DNA of 64,000 bases. Origin: Siphonodentalium dalli (lineage: Eukaryota; Mollusca; Scaphopoda; Gadilida; Siphonodentaliidae). The stretch's first letter is position 1. Every line of letters begins with the position of its first letter. Where the stretch lies: assembly GCA_032622095.1 (NCBI GenBank), contig CP136061.1, forward strand, positions 126,988,754 through 127,052,753, read 5' to 3'. The notes below the pieces were generated by a model that saw only the letters and a list, made by a program, of their open reading frames with translations, made no database searches and was not told the DNA's origin. Positions 9,500 through 43,741 of the stretch are shown here, piece after piece. A program made the position numbers and the translations under genes.

Positions 9500-10290
9500 T
9501 TCTCCATGGAGGTAACATCTTTGTGCTCGGTCACTCTTGGAGGGTACTTTGTCCACCAAGATTGTCAGAGTGCCATCACCCGCAGATGGTTAATTGTACC
9601 TCTCTTGAGTGATATGTTGCCTCCCCGGGGAGGCAATATCCTAATGCTCAACTGATGCTACTCAGTCTCTCTTGATGGGTAAATTTGCACACCAAAAGTG
9701 TCAGATTGGCTGTCCAAAAACTGCAAGGTTGCCTATCCAGGGAGGTAAAATATGAACTCTCCATGGAGGGGTTGGCCAAACTGCACCCCGGAGGTGCACT
9801 ATTTCACCACCCTTCCAAAAGGGTTAGATTATAACCACTCCATGGGGGGGGGGGGGTCTTTGCCCCTCCTGAGTGATAATGTATATCTCCCGCTGAGTGA
9901 CAAATTGTGCTTCGACAGGGATGCATTTGACTCCCATTGAGGGACAAATTGTTCTTCCACAGGGATGCACTTTAATCCCATGGAGGGACAAATTGTTCTT
10001 GACTCTTTGACAGGAGGTGATTGACCCCCACTGAGTGGCAAATTGTTCTTCAACAGGGATCCAATTGACTCCCGTGAGGGACAACTTGTTCTTCGTCAGG
10101 GAGGTACTTGACCCCCGCAGAGTGACAAATTGTTCTTCAACAGGGATGTACTTGACACCCGTTGAGGGACAAATTGTTCTTCGGCTGCTATCACTCCAAT
10201 AGCCTTTTGTAGAGGTGGTTAAATAGTGCACTACAAGAGATGCAAATATTGCCTCTCCGATGAGCAATATCGCATCTCCACTATTTAGAG
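9500..10290. repeat. Array of mini-palindromes and ~57-bp minisatellite (copy A)
   Basis: The block is a string of short imperfect palindromes of CCC-N-GGG type, such as CTCCATGGAG and TTGCCTCCCCGGGGAGGCAA. From about 9890 it becomes a minisatellite of roughly 57 bp whose units alternate ACAAATTGT with CCC-N4-6-GGG stems. About 18 such stems can be counted. Copy B has the matching array. Confidence 0.7.
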
Positions 10291-15019: not shown

Positions 15020-15840
15020 CAAGTGTCTTCTCCATGGAGGTAACATCTTTGTGCTCTGTCACTCTTGGGGGGTACTTTGTCCACCAAGAGTGTCAGAGTG
15101 CCATCACCCGAAGATTGTTAATTGTACCTCTCTTGAGTGATATGTTGCCTCCCCGGGGAGGCAATATCCTAATGCTCAACTGATGCTACTCAGTCTCTCT
15201 TGATGGGTAAATTTGCACACCAAGAGTGTCAGAGTGGCTGTCCAAAAACTGCAAGGTTGCCTCTCCGGGGAGGTAAAATATGAACTCTCTATGGAGGGGT
15301 TGGCTAAACTGCACCCCGGAGGTGCACTATTTCACCACCCCTCCAAAAGGGGTAGATTATAACCACTCCATGGGGGTCGTCTTTGCCCCTCCTGAGTGAT
15401 AATTTATATCTCCCACTGAGTGACAAATTGTGCTTCGACAGGGATGCACTTGACTCCCATTGAGGGACAAATTGTTCTTCCACAGGGATGCACTTTAATC
15501 CCATGGAGGGACAAATTGTTCTTGACTCCCGTTGAGGGTCAAATTGTTCTTCGACAGGAGGTGCTTGACCCCCACTGAGTGGCAAATTGTTCTTCAACAG
15601 GGATCCAATTGACTCCCGTGAGGGACAACTTGTTCTTCGTCAGGGAGGTCTTGACCCCCACAGAGTGACAAATTGTTATTCAACAGGGATGTACTTGACA
15701 CCCGTTGAGGGACAAATTGTTCTTCGGCTGCTATCACTCCAATAGAGAGGCATGTTAGCCTTTTGGAGAGGTGGTTAAATATTGCACCTCAAGAGATGCA
15801 AATATTACCTCTCCGAGGAGCAATATTGCATAGCCACTAT
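15020..15840. repeat. Array of mini-palindromes (copy B)
   Basis: This is the counterpart of 9500-10290. The palindromic cores are retained, while some units are lost or gained between the copies. Confidence 0.65.
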
Positions 15841-34999: not shown

Positions 35000-35075
35000 A
35001 TGGCTGACGCTCCGAATTCACGAGTGGTGGTTTTGGCTTATGATGGCAGCGATCATTCCAAATACGCTTTCAACT
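35000..35075 (+). CDS. USP coding exon 1
   Basis: The exon is 76 bases and encodes M-A-D-A-P-N-S-R then the first beta strand and the D-G-S loop. The ATG context is GTAAAGATGG, with the preferred A at -3 and G at +4. The donor is CAACT|GTAAGT. Confidence 0.9.
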
Positions 35076-38000: not shown

Positions 38001-41000
38001 ACCACAGTCAACTATGGTATAACATTGCCCAAAACCTGTTATTTATCAACATTTTGTTCAAAGAAATTTAGCCGGATTGTCAAATATCTAACACACAAAG
38101 CCACTTGATTTTTAATAGAGTTATCAATCTTCATCCGCAATTTGGTCAGAGGCTGCCAAAAAGTACCGGTTATTGTAAATTATTAACTGCCATACAAAGT
38201 ACATGATCTGAACTATAGTGCAAGGCTCCAATGAGTATTTAATAGAGACCAATACTACGTCAAGTCAATACTAACAGAATGTTAGTTTGTGCTGAAATTT
38301 GTAAACATTGGAAATATATAGTTGCTTTTGTTACTAGATTATATTGAAACAGAAAATATGTTACATTCTTTTCCGTTACCAACGACCACTGTCCATAGTT
38401 TAGACCACTCTGACCTATATCTGGCATACACAGTTGTAAACCCAGAACACCGTTCCAGACATAATTGGATCCATAATTGATTAGCTTAATATCGCACGGC
38501 TGAGGTCGCGGAGTGATAGTATACATTCCTACTACGTGTTTGTTCACTTAACGGTAATTTATTTACTGGCTGATGTACCATATGGTATATTTGCTCAACT
38601 TACGAGTGTCATGTAGACGATAACCCATCCCCAACTATTCTGTACACACTTACACACGTGCAATATGACTGAGCACGTTCACAGTCTCACACTTACGCAC
38701 GTGCAATGACTGAGCACGTTCACAGTCTCACACTTACGCACGTGCAATGACTGAGCACGTTCACGTGGGTGTGCCCACGCGTCGTGGTTGCCTTCATGTG
38801 AGAATCCTCGATTTTATACGCCAGTTTCGAAACATTATGTTCTTGGTTCGCCTGTCCGTCCTTTGTCGGCACGTCTGTCCGTTCACCGCCATGTTTGACT
38901 TTATATTACCTCCAGACTGCTGACTACTAACGATATTGTGTGTGTAGGATTATGATATCACAAAATGCACGTGATTCTGCATCGTTATTGGAACACACAT
39001 TTATTAAAGGAGTACTGTACACTAAATCCTACCATTTATGGGACCATCTCCTTTTATACTCAAAAGAATATATGCAACACAAAGGAACGAATTTGTCATG
39101 AATTAGTGTAAAATGCACAACATAGTAATTATAAGTGTAACTTTGCTCTAATAATAATAATGGCTCAAATTCATTCATTCTGTTAAGTATAAAAGGAGAT
39201 ATTCCATAAATGGCGGGATTTATTGCACAGTACCCCTTTAAGCTCACCAAGTATGGATTCAATTATGTATGGTATGGTGACCTGCATGGGGTTATACACC
39301 TGCTTCTGCCAGATATAGGACAACAACTTGAAACCACACATATTATAGAATGTTCTTTGTCATGGTATGTTGATCACATCTATAACACTATATAATGTAT
39401 ATTTTCATGGTATGTTGATCACATCTATAACACTATATAATGTACATGTTCATGGTATGTTGATCACATCTATAACACTATATAATGTACAGTTGCATGG
39501 TATGTTGATCACATCTATAACACTATATAATGTACATTTTCATGGTATGTGTTGATCACATCTATACCACTATATAATGTACATGTTCATGGTATGTTGA
39601 TCACATCTATAACACTATATAATGTACATTTGCATGGTATGTTGATCAAATCTGTAACACTATATAATGTACATTTGCATGGTATGTTGATCACATCTAT
39701 AACACTATATAATGTACATTTTCATGGTATGTGTTGATCACATCTATAACACTATATAATGTACATTTTCATGGTATGTTGATCACATCTGTAACACTAT
39801 ATAATATAATTTTTCAGGGTATGTTGATCACATCTGTAACACTATATAATGTACCTTTTCAGGGTATGTTGATCACATCTATAAACCCGATGACAGGCTG
39901 ATAGCTGTTTACTGTTCCGAATACAAGGGGTTAGCCACGCAACGTTAGTATAGAGTTAACGCCCGTAGCGGCTTTACACATTGTGTTCATGATTTTATTT
40001 TTATTTAGGAAGGAGGGAGTCTCAGGGAGTTTTGTTTGTCCACTGTTACTCGAATTAAACATGGTATGATGCTTTCTGTGTCAATGAAAAATAAATAAGC
40101 CTGTTGATTCCCTCACACACACATTATTAACCGGAACCAAGTAGCCATACCTGTCTGTAAAATGTCCCTTTTGAATTTAGAATTTGTTGCGAACCGATGT
40201 TGTGACTTTAAATGGCTTTAAACATTGTGTTCATGATTTTATTTTTATTTAGGAAGGAGGGAGTCTCAGGGAGTTTTGTTTGTCCACTGTTACTCGAATT
40301 AAACATGGTATGATGCTTTCTGTGTCAATCAAAATAAATAAGCCTTGTTGATTCCACCACCCACATGTTATTAACCGGAAACAAGTAGCCATACCTGTCT
40401 GTAAAATGTCCCTTTTGAATTTAGAATTTGTTGCGAACCGATGTTGTTGCTCTGGCGACGTTGCTTAACATATGGCTGAACACCGAACTCAAGCATAATT
40501 TAATCTATATAGTGAACTGAAATAAACAATTTCAGTGATTGACATCTATAGTCGTTTTATTTTGAATGCAATCTGCCTTGATCTTTGAATGGCCATCCTC
40601 TTTTCGGCCTTGTCGTCTCCAAATTTGTGTTGAGTCATAACTTGCGATGCTTTCAGCTATCATGTCGGCTGATCCAGCCCTAATAGAAAGGATGATCGAC
40701 GACGAAAAGGAACGATCACTGTCCGTAGCTCATAACATTGAAGAAATGATGAAAGCCAAAAATGTAAGTCTTGTTTTCTTTTCAACTCACAGAAATCCCA
40801 CTTGACACCGTAGACGTAATTTGAATAAACGAGATCACTGAGTCGCTACCATGTTGGATCCATCCAGCCCCGTTCCGCGTAGCCAGTGTTCTGTAGTAGC
40901 ATTCCATATATGGAATTCATGAATATTCAAAACTCCTTATATGGAATGCTACTCCAGAACTTTGACCTGTAGCACTTAAACCGCGGAATGGGGGCTGGAT

Positions 41001-43741
41001 CGATCCAATATGGTAGCGACTCAGCGATCTCGCGTTTCAGGCAGATTCACTTTGATTTGAGTGTGGAGCAATAAAATCGACCCACTTATATGAGGTATCT
41101 TTTCGTGGTGAGACACATTAATGTGAGTGCATTTGGGGTGTAACCATTAAAGGCCCACTTAATTTTCGAATGCCCAAATTACATTATACACAACATATTC
41201 CATATTACATACCATTTGGAAGAGGAACCAAAACATATATGCCACCACAATACGGAACAGCTGTGGCATAGGAGTGTCCACCGAGTGATAGAGATTCTCA
41301 GATTCACACAACTTGTGACCCAAGACTTTCCCCGTCGGTTACACCAGAATGCATCACAATTCACAACTAAGAGATATAGTTATTCCACTTCCCTTGAGAA
41401 TAATAAACTGGCAGTACAGACCGGTTCTAAATTAAGCGCAGAACACATATATGGAATGTGTTGTATATATATGTGAGCTGTGGATTAAAAAATTAAGTGG
41501 GCCTTTAATCGTGATATATGTGTGTCGCGATCATTCTGAAGAATCTTTTATTCTCAAATTTTGGTATATTTCGTCGGCTAAAGTTATTAATCAAACAGTT
41601 CTTACACGATTGGAACTGCTATTAACTCCTATGTACAGATTACATCTTCACTCAATATGCACACCACAATTAAATTCTAAATTGTATATACAGTTCCTTG
41701 GTAGATGTGAGTGATAAATCTAGCATTCAAAACTTGTGTCCACCTAAAGTTAGAGGATACATTAAATTGGTTCAGTGGGATTATATAAACTGTGGCGTGA
41801 AATGGTACTAGTATGATATTGGAAATGAGAAATGGAATTATCATTAATACCAGGTCACTGCAGGTTATAATTTCAATATTTTTTATTATTATATGATTAT
41901 AAGTTTCTTTCCCCAATTCCTATGTTAAAACGTAAAGAAACAATGAGATATCTAACGATGTTCACCTCATTAATGAAACAACAGGTTAATAACAGTTCTG
42001 AGTGACGTCAGATACTTCAAAGGTTAACATAACTTATTATCAGACCTGGAAATAGATCAGGTTTCCCATCGACGTTCAACGTCACAACGTCTTGTCCAAT
42101 CAAAGTGTGTTTCATATAATAAAACAGTTATCGCATGCGATAATTGTATATTATTATATGATCATAAGTTTCTTTCCCAATTCCTATGTTATAACATAAC
42201 GAAAAAATAGAGATATCTAATGATGTTCACCCCATTAATCAAACAAGAGGTTAATAACAGTTATGAGTGACGTCAGATACTTCAGGGGTTAACATAACTT
42301 ATTATCAGACCTGAAAATAGATAGCATTTTCCCAGCGACGTTCGACGTCACAACGTCTTGTCCAATCAAAGGGCGTTTCATATAATAAAACAGTTATCGC
42401 ATTGTTTCTTGGTTGACACGAGGAATTGCCAGCCCTTGAAAGTCAATATTCACCTCGGCCTACGGCCTTGATGAATATTGACTTCCTCGGGTTGACAATT
42501 CCTCGTGTCAACCTCGAAACAATGCGATAACTGTATAATATCGAAGTGAATCGTGATACGCATATCGGATCGTGAGCAGAAATCGCGATAAATATCGTAT
42601 CGTATAGCAGGGGTTTCAAACATTTGCTGAAGTAATGTCCATAACTGCAACATAGAAAAAGGTATGAGACTGAATTACATCAAAATATGTCATTTGGGCT
42701 TGAAATAATCAAAAGTTGAGTAAACTAGATGCTACGAAAGCTGCGTACCAGTCATTTTGGGGGTTGACACTGTCATAATCTCATTGGAGTTTTCCCCATA
42801 GTATTGCATATCAATTTGTTATAGACTCCCAAGTTAGAAGTTCGAGAAAGAGAAAGCTTGGATTAAGTCCCTGAAATATCATGGCGAATTTCGGGAACTT
42901 CGACAGAACTGCATTGTTGTTTGAACTTTATGCTTGAAATGTTTCAATCAATTAATATAAATTGTATTTAGAATTCCTTCAAGTTATCGCATCGGCGGGA
43001 CAGTTTTACGGGCTATTTTTATGTGTACCCATACCATAGTATGGTACACATAGTGTCGACGTCCAGATTGACCACTCGTCGTTCGTCCGTCCGTTCGAAT
43101 TTGGGTTTGATCCGTTTTTTTAACGCATTTATGGCTTATGGATTTTAGCGTCCAAGCTGAAAATAGCTGATCACTATCGTCAAGGTATGGGTTAAACATC
43201 TGCCGATCGTGATCGGCCTCTCATTAGAACATAAATCCGCACGAAAACGTTCAGAGCATAACAAGAAGGAGGACTCTACCTTGCTAAGTTGTTATAGCAC
43301 TATAACTCACGACCTTACGATAGAAATAAACCACTTTGAATATACATACTAGTATTCCTTTATAGACAATAATATACCCAATATTAAGTTTTAACTGTAC
43401 TTTATTCACAAAATAGCTATTTGTAGTCTTGAAATCGGGGTTTATAAAAATGATGTTGTAATTGTCGCCCGGAAGAGATAGACCATCTTTAACAAATACG
43501 AGTATTCGTTTGTCTGCAGGTCACGGGGAAAATCATAGCCTTACATGGAGATCCAGGCGAAGCTATCGTCAAGGTGTCAAAAGAAGAGAAGGCAGTTCTT
43601 ATAGTCACCGGGACCCGAGGACTGGGTACGTTCAGACGGACCGTCATGGGAAGCGTTAGTGATTACGTTCTGCACCACTGTCACGTGCCTGTCGTCATCT
43701 GCCGTCATCCAGATTTCCATCACCACCATCATGACAAATAA
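35000..43741 (+). CDS. Universal stress protein (UspA family), four coding exons
   Basis: The exons are 35000-35075, 39863-39943, 40657-40763 and 43520-43741, 486 bases in all, giving 161 residues. Phases fit at each join: T|GG makes W26, C|CT makes P53, and the third junction lies between codons. Donors are GTAAGT, GTTAGT and GTAAGT; acceptors are TTTTCAG, CTTTCAG and TCTGCAG. The fold starts V-V-V-L-A-Y-D-G-S (D15 in the nucleotide site) and continues W-Y-V-D-H-I-Y. It ends with G119-x2-G122-x9-G132-S133, the ATP-binding signature of UspA proteins of the MJ0577 type, then V-P-V-V-I-C-R-H. Length matches the family. The tail carries five histidines (155-159). These cytosolic ATP-binding proteins are linked to stress responses in many animals; the exact role is not known. 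ATTAAA at 43921 could be the poly(A) signal. Introns 1 and 3 are crowded with MITEs. Confidence 0.92.
35076..36831. other. USP intron 1, first part
   Basis: Apart from the worn MITE at 35325-35530, it contains AACGCTCTTT at 36179 and a near copy AACGTTCTTT at 36217. No further exon is recognised. Confidence 0.3.
35325..35530. mobile_element. Worn MITE with strong hairpin (USP intron 1)
   Basis: 35335-35403 is a palindrome with ~30-bp arms: GGAAATGTTGATATAATAAG at the left, its complement at the right, and TATCCCGCCG as loop. The following ~120 bp resembles 54717-55116, including a matching hairpin, so both belong to one family. Confidence 0.6.
36832..37317 (+). mobile_element. TTAA-bounded MITE, family R1 (USP intron 1)
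   Basis: It is 486 bp, with TTAAAGATGCAGTATCCGA at the left and GGATTGAGTATTTTAA at the right. It is diverged from the copies at 6323 and 11770. The 92-codon frame over it is not kept in those copies, so it is not coding. Confidence 0.7.
37884..38155 (-). mobile_element. R1 MITE fragment, inverted (USP intron 1)
   Basis: It begins TTAAAGCTATTCAATCCGAT, the R1 right end in reverse, and fades out near 38155, so the far end is missing. With the copy at 36832 it makes an inverted pair about 570 bp apart. Confidence 0.65.
38648..38770 (+). repeat. Minisatellite with CACGTG-like cores
   Basis: It is nearly three copies of a ~46-bp unit with TTACGCACGTGCAATGACTG and GAGCACGTTCACAG. Confidence 0.8.
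39004..39241. mobile_element. TTAA-bounded MITE, 238 bp (USP intron 1)
   Basis: The left end TTAAAGGAGTACTGTACACT and, in reverse complement, the right end TTAAAGGGGTACTGTGCAAT make imperfect inverted repeats of about 60 bp. Each is bounded by TTAA. Confidence 0.75.
39361..39859 (+). repeat. 45-bp minisatellite that copies the start of USP exon 2
   Basis: Eleven units (nine of 45 bp, two of 47 bp) run head-to-tail and end exactly at the exon-2 acceptor. Each unit carries GGTATGTTGATCACATCT, the first bases of exon 2, preceded by a pyrimidine-rich stretch and CAT where the real exon has CAG. Only the last unit (39815) has CAG. A transcript spliced there would read [10 protein letters not shown] and stop. 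Confidence 0.92.
39863..39943 (+). CDS. USP coding exon 2
   Basis: The exon is 81 bases, reading [20 protein letters not shown] after the junction. Its first ~22 bases are repeated in the minisatellite directly upstream. The donor is CAAC|GTTAGT, chosen because it keeps phase with exon 3. Confidence 0.88.
39969..40446 (+). repeat. 244-bp tandem duplication in USP intron 2
   Basis: Two copies start at GGCTTTA and share TTTTATTTTTATTTAGGAAG and ATTAAACATGGTATGATGCT. Both copies contain a pyrimidine-AG that could act as a cryptic splice acceptor. Confidence 0.8.
40657..40763 (+). CDS. USP coding exon 3
   Basis: The exon is 107 bases and encodes the middle helix, from [13 protein letters not shown] to E-M-M-K-A-K-N. 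The acceptor is GCTTTCAG and the donor AAAAAT|GTAAGT. Confidence 0.9.
40833..41033. mobile_element. 200-bp foldback hairpin in USP intron 3
   Basis: Almost the whole stretch is one imperfect palindrome. The outer arms carry CTGAGTCGCTACCATGTTGG and its complement, the inner arms AGTAGCATTCCATATATGGA and its complement. Confidence 0.85.
41147..41508. mobile_element. TTAA-bounded MITE, 362 bp (USP intron 3)
   Basis: The termini are TTAAAGGCCCACTTAATTTT at the left and the same in reverse complement at the right, 20 identical bases bounded by TTAA. The 86-codon frame inside has no domain. Confidence 0.85.
41884..42404 (+). repeat. ~265-bp tandem duplication in USP intron 3
   Basis: 41884-42149 and 42150-42404 are head-to-tail copies sharing GTTAATAACAGTTNTGAGTG and CACAACGTCTTGTCCAATCA. 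Copy 1 ends in a short palindrome, ACAGTTATCGCATGCGATAA. Copy 2 enters the long palindrome at 42390. Confidence 0.85.
42390..42534. repeat. Long palindrome, 145 bp (USP intron 3)
   Basis: The ~70-bp arms begin ACAGTTATCGCATTGTTTC and end GAAACAATGCGATAACTGT, with CCTCGGCCTACGGCCTT at the centre. Confidence 0.9.
42535..43519. other. USP intron 3, last part
   Basis: No exon is seen. 43020-43200 has GTCCGTCCGTTCG and TTTGGGTTTGATCC words of the kind found in the Helitron-like interiors elsewhere in the window. Confidence 0.3.
43520..43741 (+). CDS. USP coding exon 4 (last)
   Basis: The exon is 222 bases with TAA at 43739-43741. It contains the H-G-D-P-G-E-A-I strand-loop, the glycine-rich ATP-binding loop and the histidine tail. 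Confidence 0.92.

Follow-up and report, generated by a model that had tools for sequence, protein, structure and literature searches.

A question raised by this locus is whether a row of altered copies of an exon's own start, placed directly before that exon, reflects selection against decoy splice sites or is the product of tandem duplication that pays no regard to exon edges. The window (the whole stretch of DNA analysed, 64,000 bases) is part of a 2.23-Gb assembly in nine contigs, and its + strand carries a universal stress protein (USP) gene with 4 coding exons and an uninterrupted frame of 161 amino acids; the exons and array features of this gene given below are all on that strand. The coding part of exon 1 (35000–35075), placed by the joined frame and the Pfam Usp match, ends ...AAC T|GTAAGT in phase 1, and is followed by exon 2 (39863–39943), exon 3 (40657–40763, from the joined reading frame) and exon 4 with the stop codon (43520–43741, from the joined frame and the Usp family search). 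The protein passes the curated Pfam Usp (PF00582) cut-off of 24, with 96 bits over residues 8–150. A family search of the assembly returned nine last-exon matches, one of which is this gene.

Anatomy and source of the USP array

The last roughly 520 bases of USP intron 1 are a tandem array (39344–39887, from TRF and the unit starts) of about 12 copies of a 45-bp unit, the last copy being the true start of exon 2. TRF reports 39344–39884, a 45-bp period, 11.9 copies and 92% matches. Each unit comprises about 20 intron and 25 exon bases; its exon-derived portion, GGTATGTTGATCACATCTATAA, is the same as the first 22 bases of exon 2 and is full or nearly so in the upstream units. Twelve unit starts of the form CA[T/G]GGTATG were found, ten with CAT followed by two with CAG. 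Units 1–10, with CAT in place of the acceptor, begin at 39361, 39406, 39451, 39496, 39541, 39588, 39633, 39678, 39723 and 39770 and extend to 39814; unit 11 (39815–39859) has a decoy acceptor with CAG (39815–39817), and the CAG of unit 12 (39860–39862) is the true exon-2 acceptor, the sole one of the 12 unit acceptors that yields the USP frame. The sequence-only reading had described eleven head-to-tail copies of the acceptor region before exon 2, of which ten carry CAT and the last CAG; the copies are real and lie where it placed them, the order of CAT and CAG is seen in the sequence, and the acceptor at 39817 gives the translation that it reported, with an in-frame TAA after ten codons. One extra CAG, absent from that reading, lies within the array (TGTACAGTTG, 39490–39492), with little pyrimidine in front of it.

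Units are spaced at 45 bases, except that the spacing is 47 after units 5 and 9, each of which has an extra TG. Across the 11 upstream units, and excluding this 2-base insertion, we counted 5 differences in 242 exon-derived positions and 12 in 253 intron-derived positions, and the idea that the exon-derived portion is the better conserved inside the array was dropped as not significant (Fisher P = 0.14). Of the 17 bases that precede the first CAT, 13 agree with the unit (binomial P about 1e-4), a level also reached at 14 of about 63,400 other window positions, and the array therefore comes to about 12.0 copies of 45 bp.

Searched against the 2.2-Gb assembly, the unit gave one DNA match. The unit pattern with at most 3 mismatches gave 11 matches genome-wide, all inside the array, with none on the other strand and none for a reversed control, in assembly-wide searches of a kind that can miss matches. 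The unit was accordingly rejected as a dispersed repeat family, a second locus not having been found in the assembly by these searches, which may miss matches. As exon 2 lies inside a continuous match to the ancient Usp family, the array is derived from the exon, and an origin of exon 2 from the array is ruled out. We looked for older traces at 39001–39340 and in a duplication in intron 2, and found decayed units in neither at a level better than shuffles. That duplication (39970–40447) is a 244-bp tandem duplication with 95% matches, which starts 26 bases past exon 2 and contains no boundary copy. For the ancestral state we turned to the eight paralogous USP genes: the 10 kb upstream of each last-exon match showed no convincing exon 2, and none of their exon-4 acceptors (0 of 8) has boundary copies. 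A protein search with exons 2–3 returned only the exons of this gene. Direct repeats of AAACC around the inferred founder segment, seen by eye, were too short to count.

Elsewhere in the window are two related 44-bp arrays (9887–10183 and 15410–15726) with acceptor-like TTCTTCGACAGG units, apparently in a duplicated segment; no gene was identified at either. TRF arrays with a period of 10 or more cover 4,136 of the 64,000 window bases.

Boundary copies at other exons

We surveyed 115 exons from three families for similar copies: 15 kinase exons (600 bases of flank, short open frames), 60 tyrosine phosphatase exons (200 bases) and 40 P450 exons (150 bases). This is a small sample, hand-picked from match lists before the flanks were seen, and the 19 of 115 matches that contain stop codons were kept in the counts. 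A PF00069 control of 30 loci was one cluster of near-identical kinase copies (L009–L038) and was excluded from all counts. Dozens of near-identical kinase copies, many about 2.4–2.9 kb apart and each with its domain match in one open frame, were observed on G000:C2 at about 149.83–150.59 Mb.

Self-comparison revealed a direct repeat reaching from inside the match to outside in 15 of the 115 exons. At least 14 exon bases are copied across a splice edge in 11 of the 115 (one uncertain), or 8 after merging paralogues. The cases are uneven by family (2/15 kinase, 9/60 phosphatase and 0/40 P450), and paralogues share arrays. Five are on the donor side (L046, L047, L063, L076 and L105), with 30 to 103 exon bases copied, and six on the acceptor side (L096, L098, L108, L109, L111 and L113). 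At L098 an open frame continues upstream beyond the presumed acceptor, which leaves the edge uncertain, and at L047 the single further copy lies about 400 bp downstream and is not head-to-tail; both were counted. Set aside were L040, with its copy 640 bp away, L147 and L151, which repeat the end of the coding region, and L077, L145 and L056, in which the unit holds little or no exon. Two of the counted cases illustrate the form that such copies take: in L063 a stretch made of the last 43 exon bases and AAG|GTATCG has four occurrences in total over the piece read, and in L113 the true TTTCAG|TGACGGTATTGGT has four copies and a partial fifth upstream of it.

The two kinase cases have features of their own. 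L046 (G000:C1:34053166–34054677) has a donor-side array of 55-bp units at 865–1108, decaying to about 1450, in which the unit consists of the last 41 exon bases plus ATAG|GTAGGT; six downstream copies were aligned, with GT in all. At L047 (G000:C9:73010557–73012020) there is, in addition, a 28-bp unit present at least 23.6 times (1–661), with CAGGTTAAT in many copies; this array is without exon sequence and stops 5 bases before the kinase exon acceptor CAG (667–669).

To place these cases in context we computed repeat coverage with equal 150-base flanks, for which the ends of matches only approximate exon ends. Local direct repeats cover 1,470 of 34,500 bases (4.3%) of intron flank and 133 of 26,868 bases (0.5%) of exon interior. 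Match edges are repeat-covered in 4–7 of the 115 exons, which is the range found further out, and none is covered 60 bases inside; neighbouring offsets are non-independent and the cases are few. Because edge coverage is similar to flank coverage, nothing suggests that repeats are drawn to edges or kept away from them. Exon edges look like the intronic repeat background, as if duplication ignored splice sites and was tolerated. Duplications across an exon edge may survive because one intact edge still adjoins the exon.

The state of the copied splice sites was examined in a phosphatase acceptor series of 55 loci (56, minus L072, which is a different exon with no recognised acceptor), of which 31 were chosen for an exon position shared with array-bearing exons and were excluded from prevalence. 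Upstream copies were detected at 17 of the 55 loci, 27 copies in all, and AG is kept in 24 of the 27, counts that are non-independent because paralogues share ancestry; some of the paralogues may be pseudogenes. Shuffled upstream sequence gave 0 copies in 1,100 trials. Within the 260 bases read, copy number in close paralogues varies from 0 (L176) to 5 (L178), a sign of array turnover. The paralogues L113, L111, L108 and L174–L178, all on C1, form a natural series for the study of such turnover: between 0 and 5 upstream copies were detected at each, and most of the copies retain an intact TTTCAG or similar. For 26 of the 27 copies, a frame continued from the phosphatase decoy runs into a stop, either within the extension or in the 20 codons that follow; the exception is a copy without AG. 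The acceptor copy at L098 also keeps AG. On the donor side, GT is present in 14 of 15 copies at five loci, the fifteenth being unaligned at GT. The share of copies with AG or GT may be raised, since copies found by alignment to the true edge miss strongly decayed ones. At the surveyed loci, intact decoys are the rule and the USP array is the exception.

Probable founder spread, decoys and splicing

For the state before the array, the order of events and the use of splice sites at USP, we infer the following course. A 45-base segment spanning the intron-1/exon-2 boundary would have been tandemly duplicated, with the functional acceptor role staying with the exon-proximal copy. In one early upstream copy CAG would then have become CAT; slippage or unequal exchange acting on this AG-free copy would have produced most of the array, probably with duplication of a block of four units. 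The pre-mRNA would present a dozen TAAC-containing sites, which we take to be branch-like, together with short T runs, and the exon-proximal AG would be used, so that the array would normally be removed with intron 1 by splicing at 39862. The CAT units are contiguous (1–10) and the CAG units 11 and 12 lie at the exon end; one G-to-T change therefore suffices for ten CAT units. The TG insertion common to units 5 and 9, four units apart, and the higher TRF score of a 182-bp period (928, against 892 for the 45-bp period) point to block duplication. The earlier reading had offered two explanations, spread from a unit with CAT or selection against decoys with CAG. The contiguity of the units favours the first, a single CAG-to-CAT founder that would have spread and so account for the USP pattern; the second, together with the description of the decoys as 'disarmed', finds no support, given that AG is kept in the great majority of phosphatase copies and GT in the donor copies.

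The case for selection is as follows: CAG units would truncate USP, and hence only CAT units would have accumulated. AG is absent from 10 of the 11 upstream units, and the longest AG-free run of the window (39491–39815, 325 bases) lies inside the array, although a run of this length arises because one AG-free unit is repeated. If used, units 5 and 9 would give shifted frames of 89 and 83 codons, and the other nine of the 11 upstream units would each be read for 35 codons before a stop. Against this, one founder change covers all ten CAT units, CAG is retained in unit 11 and another CAG arose at 39490, and the phosphatase copies keep AG even though reading on from nearly all of them meets a stop. 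Single changes that create AG in a unit are 20 of the 135 possible; the units depart from their consensus at 17 places, two of which give AG (one in unit 3, and the CAG of unit 11 if counted as derived). Gain of AG within the array is about at the chance level, with no visible depletion, at low power, and the evidence for selection against AG is weak. We consider it quite unlikely that selection shaped the array. An assembly artefact, in which mis-assembly of reads or haplotypes would have produced the tandem copies, is extremely unlikely: the array is known from a single assembly, but its units differ by substitutions and by a recurring 2-base insertion, other loci have similar arrays built of different units, and diverged versions of an array are present in phosphatase paralogues.

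Two further explanations concern the splicing signals that the unit carries. Duplicated 3' splice sites compete, and transcripts with an early stop are degraded by nonsense-mediated decay when the stop is well upstream of an exon junction. Only two AGs in the array, at 39817 and 39862, are in what appears to be a good context. The decoy at 39817, if used, would add 45 bases with TAA, and the product should be degraded. This CAG might thus act as a poison acceptor, with some transcripts extended by 45 bases, stopped early and degraded, and with the array tuning the level of USP. Unit 11 combines CAG and a short T run with a TAAC-containing upstream context like that of the true site, and the stop is well upstream of the exon 2/3 junction; by contrast, RT-PCR of amphioxus genes with comparable arrays suggests, in the available text of that study, that regular splicing is undisturbed (PMC3087553). 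Such a role at USP is conceivable but rather unlikely.

A donor-like G|GTATGT is present in all 12 units, with U1 pairing of −4.8 or −5.7 kcal/mol, similar to two of the gene's own three donors (−4.9, −1.3 and −4.9); the sequence-only reading did not mention it. The motif is probably a consequence of the protein sequence, as an exon that encodes Trp-Tyr-Val, and is split from the preceding one behind the first base of the TGG codon, starts with GGTAYGTN. Between units 11 and 12 a 44-base intron-like stretch, GTATGT...CTGTAAC...CCTTTTCAG (39819–39862), has a donor U1 pairing of −5.7 kcal/mol. The unit could accordingly be regarded as an incipient intron (GTATGT ... TAAC ... TTTTCAG), the copied acceptor edge, with an exon that starts GGTATGT, making new donor–acceptor pairs and offering a route to intron gain, as in potato RdRp, where an intron was gained via a duplicated intron–exon edge with a cryptic exonic donor (PMC4974935). 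This is very unlikely for the USP unit: the acceptor is absent from ten units, the intron between units 11 and 12 would be only 44 bases long, and the complete USP protein needs none.

The USP array is very probably a tandemly duplicated intron-1/exon-2 edge in which a CAT founder has spread, and part of a wider pattern, such that the genome would make many short tandem duplications regardless of exon edges and the USP array would be one case among them. Edges may be duplicated about as freely as introns and yet be spliced correctly past up to 5 near-identical upstream acceptors that have an intact AG and lead to stops, a proposal that we put forward tentatively and at somewhat less than even confidence. 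If true, the exon-proximal choice among duplicated 3' splice sites is reliable at many loci and a first-AG rule is insufficient.

Relation to mirages and other repeat-bearing genes

'Mirage' is the amphioxus term for an exon–intron boundary minisatellite, with Adh3, TnC and PGBD5 named in the available text of the two reports (PMC3087553, PMC3902484). The USP array joins this known kind: its unit holds intron and exon bases and the array ends at the true exon-2 edge (39860). What is new is the shared loss of AG and the apparent commonness of boundary copies in this genome. In the literature under open licences we found no report of mirages outside amphioxus, among sources seen in part, which is weak evidence of absence; our survey suggests that boundary copies are not rare in another animal genome. 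If the tentative proposal on freely duplicated edges holds, mirages would also provide, outside the cephalochordates, a store of splice-site variation across the genome. Near-identical splice-site arrays are natural competition experiments, in which acceptor, pyrimidine run and exon start are repeated up to five or more times, with or without AG, and splice-site choice, decoy tolerance and intron gain become testable by ordinary RNA-seq. Gene predictors may mis-set exon edges at such arrays.

As far as the accessible parts of the two amphioxus reports describe them, mirage units are likewise made of intron end and exon start, or of exon end, beside the true exon, and the USP unit of 45 bp falls within the 10–72 bp of amphioxus Adh3 (PMC3087553, PMC3902484). 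AG or GT signals are described there in many, not all, amphioxus units (PMC3087553, PMC3902484), whereas ten of the eleven upstream USP copies share one AG loss. The USP copies outnumber the units of BflGb6, given in the same partial text as 6 and 3 in two haplotypes and 150–160 bp each, and the host of the USP array, unlike that of the amphioxus mirages, is a 2.2-Gb genome in nine contigs. The boundaries of the BflGb6 cluster are reported, in the sections available, to escape homogenisation (PMC3087553, PMC3902484); in the USP array the 5' edge matches the unit at 13 of 17 positions, unit 10 is the most different (4 differences), and the inner unit 7 is as divergent as unit 11 (3 each).

Other systems resemble the USP array in part. 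In potato RdRp the duplicated intron–exon edge also includes a branch site, a pyrimidine tract and an acceptor, together with a cryptic donor from the exon (PMC4974935). At USP, by contrast, no new intron is required for the frame, and 10 of the 11 duplicated acceptors are dead. Internal tandem repeats in human segmental duplications are similar in that expanded minisatellites change the lengths of exons and introns (PMC2812944); there the repeats change exons or make introns, whereas the copies at USP lie in the intron and leave the exon as it was. A paper on flatworm USP (PMC5793430) holds nothing bearing on USP intron 1 in its available sections. The earthworm metallothionein gene, like USP a small stress-response gene, also has a long minisatellite array in intron 1 (PMC12783039), and its monomers, unlike the USP unit, are described in the accessible text without mention of exon-edge sequence (PMC12783039).
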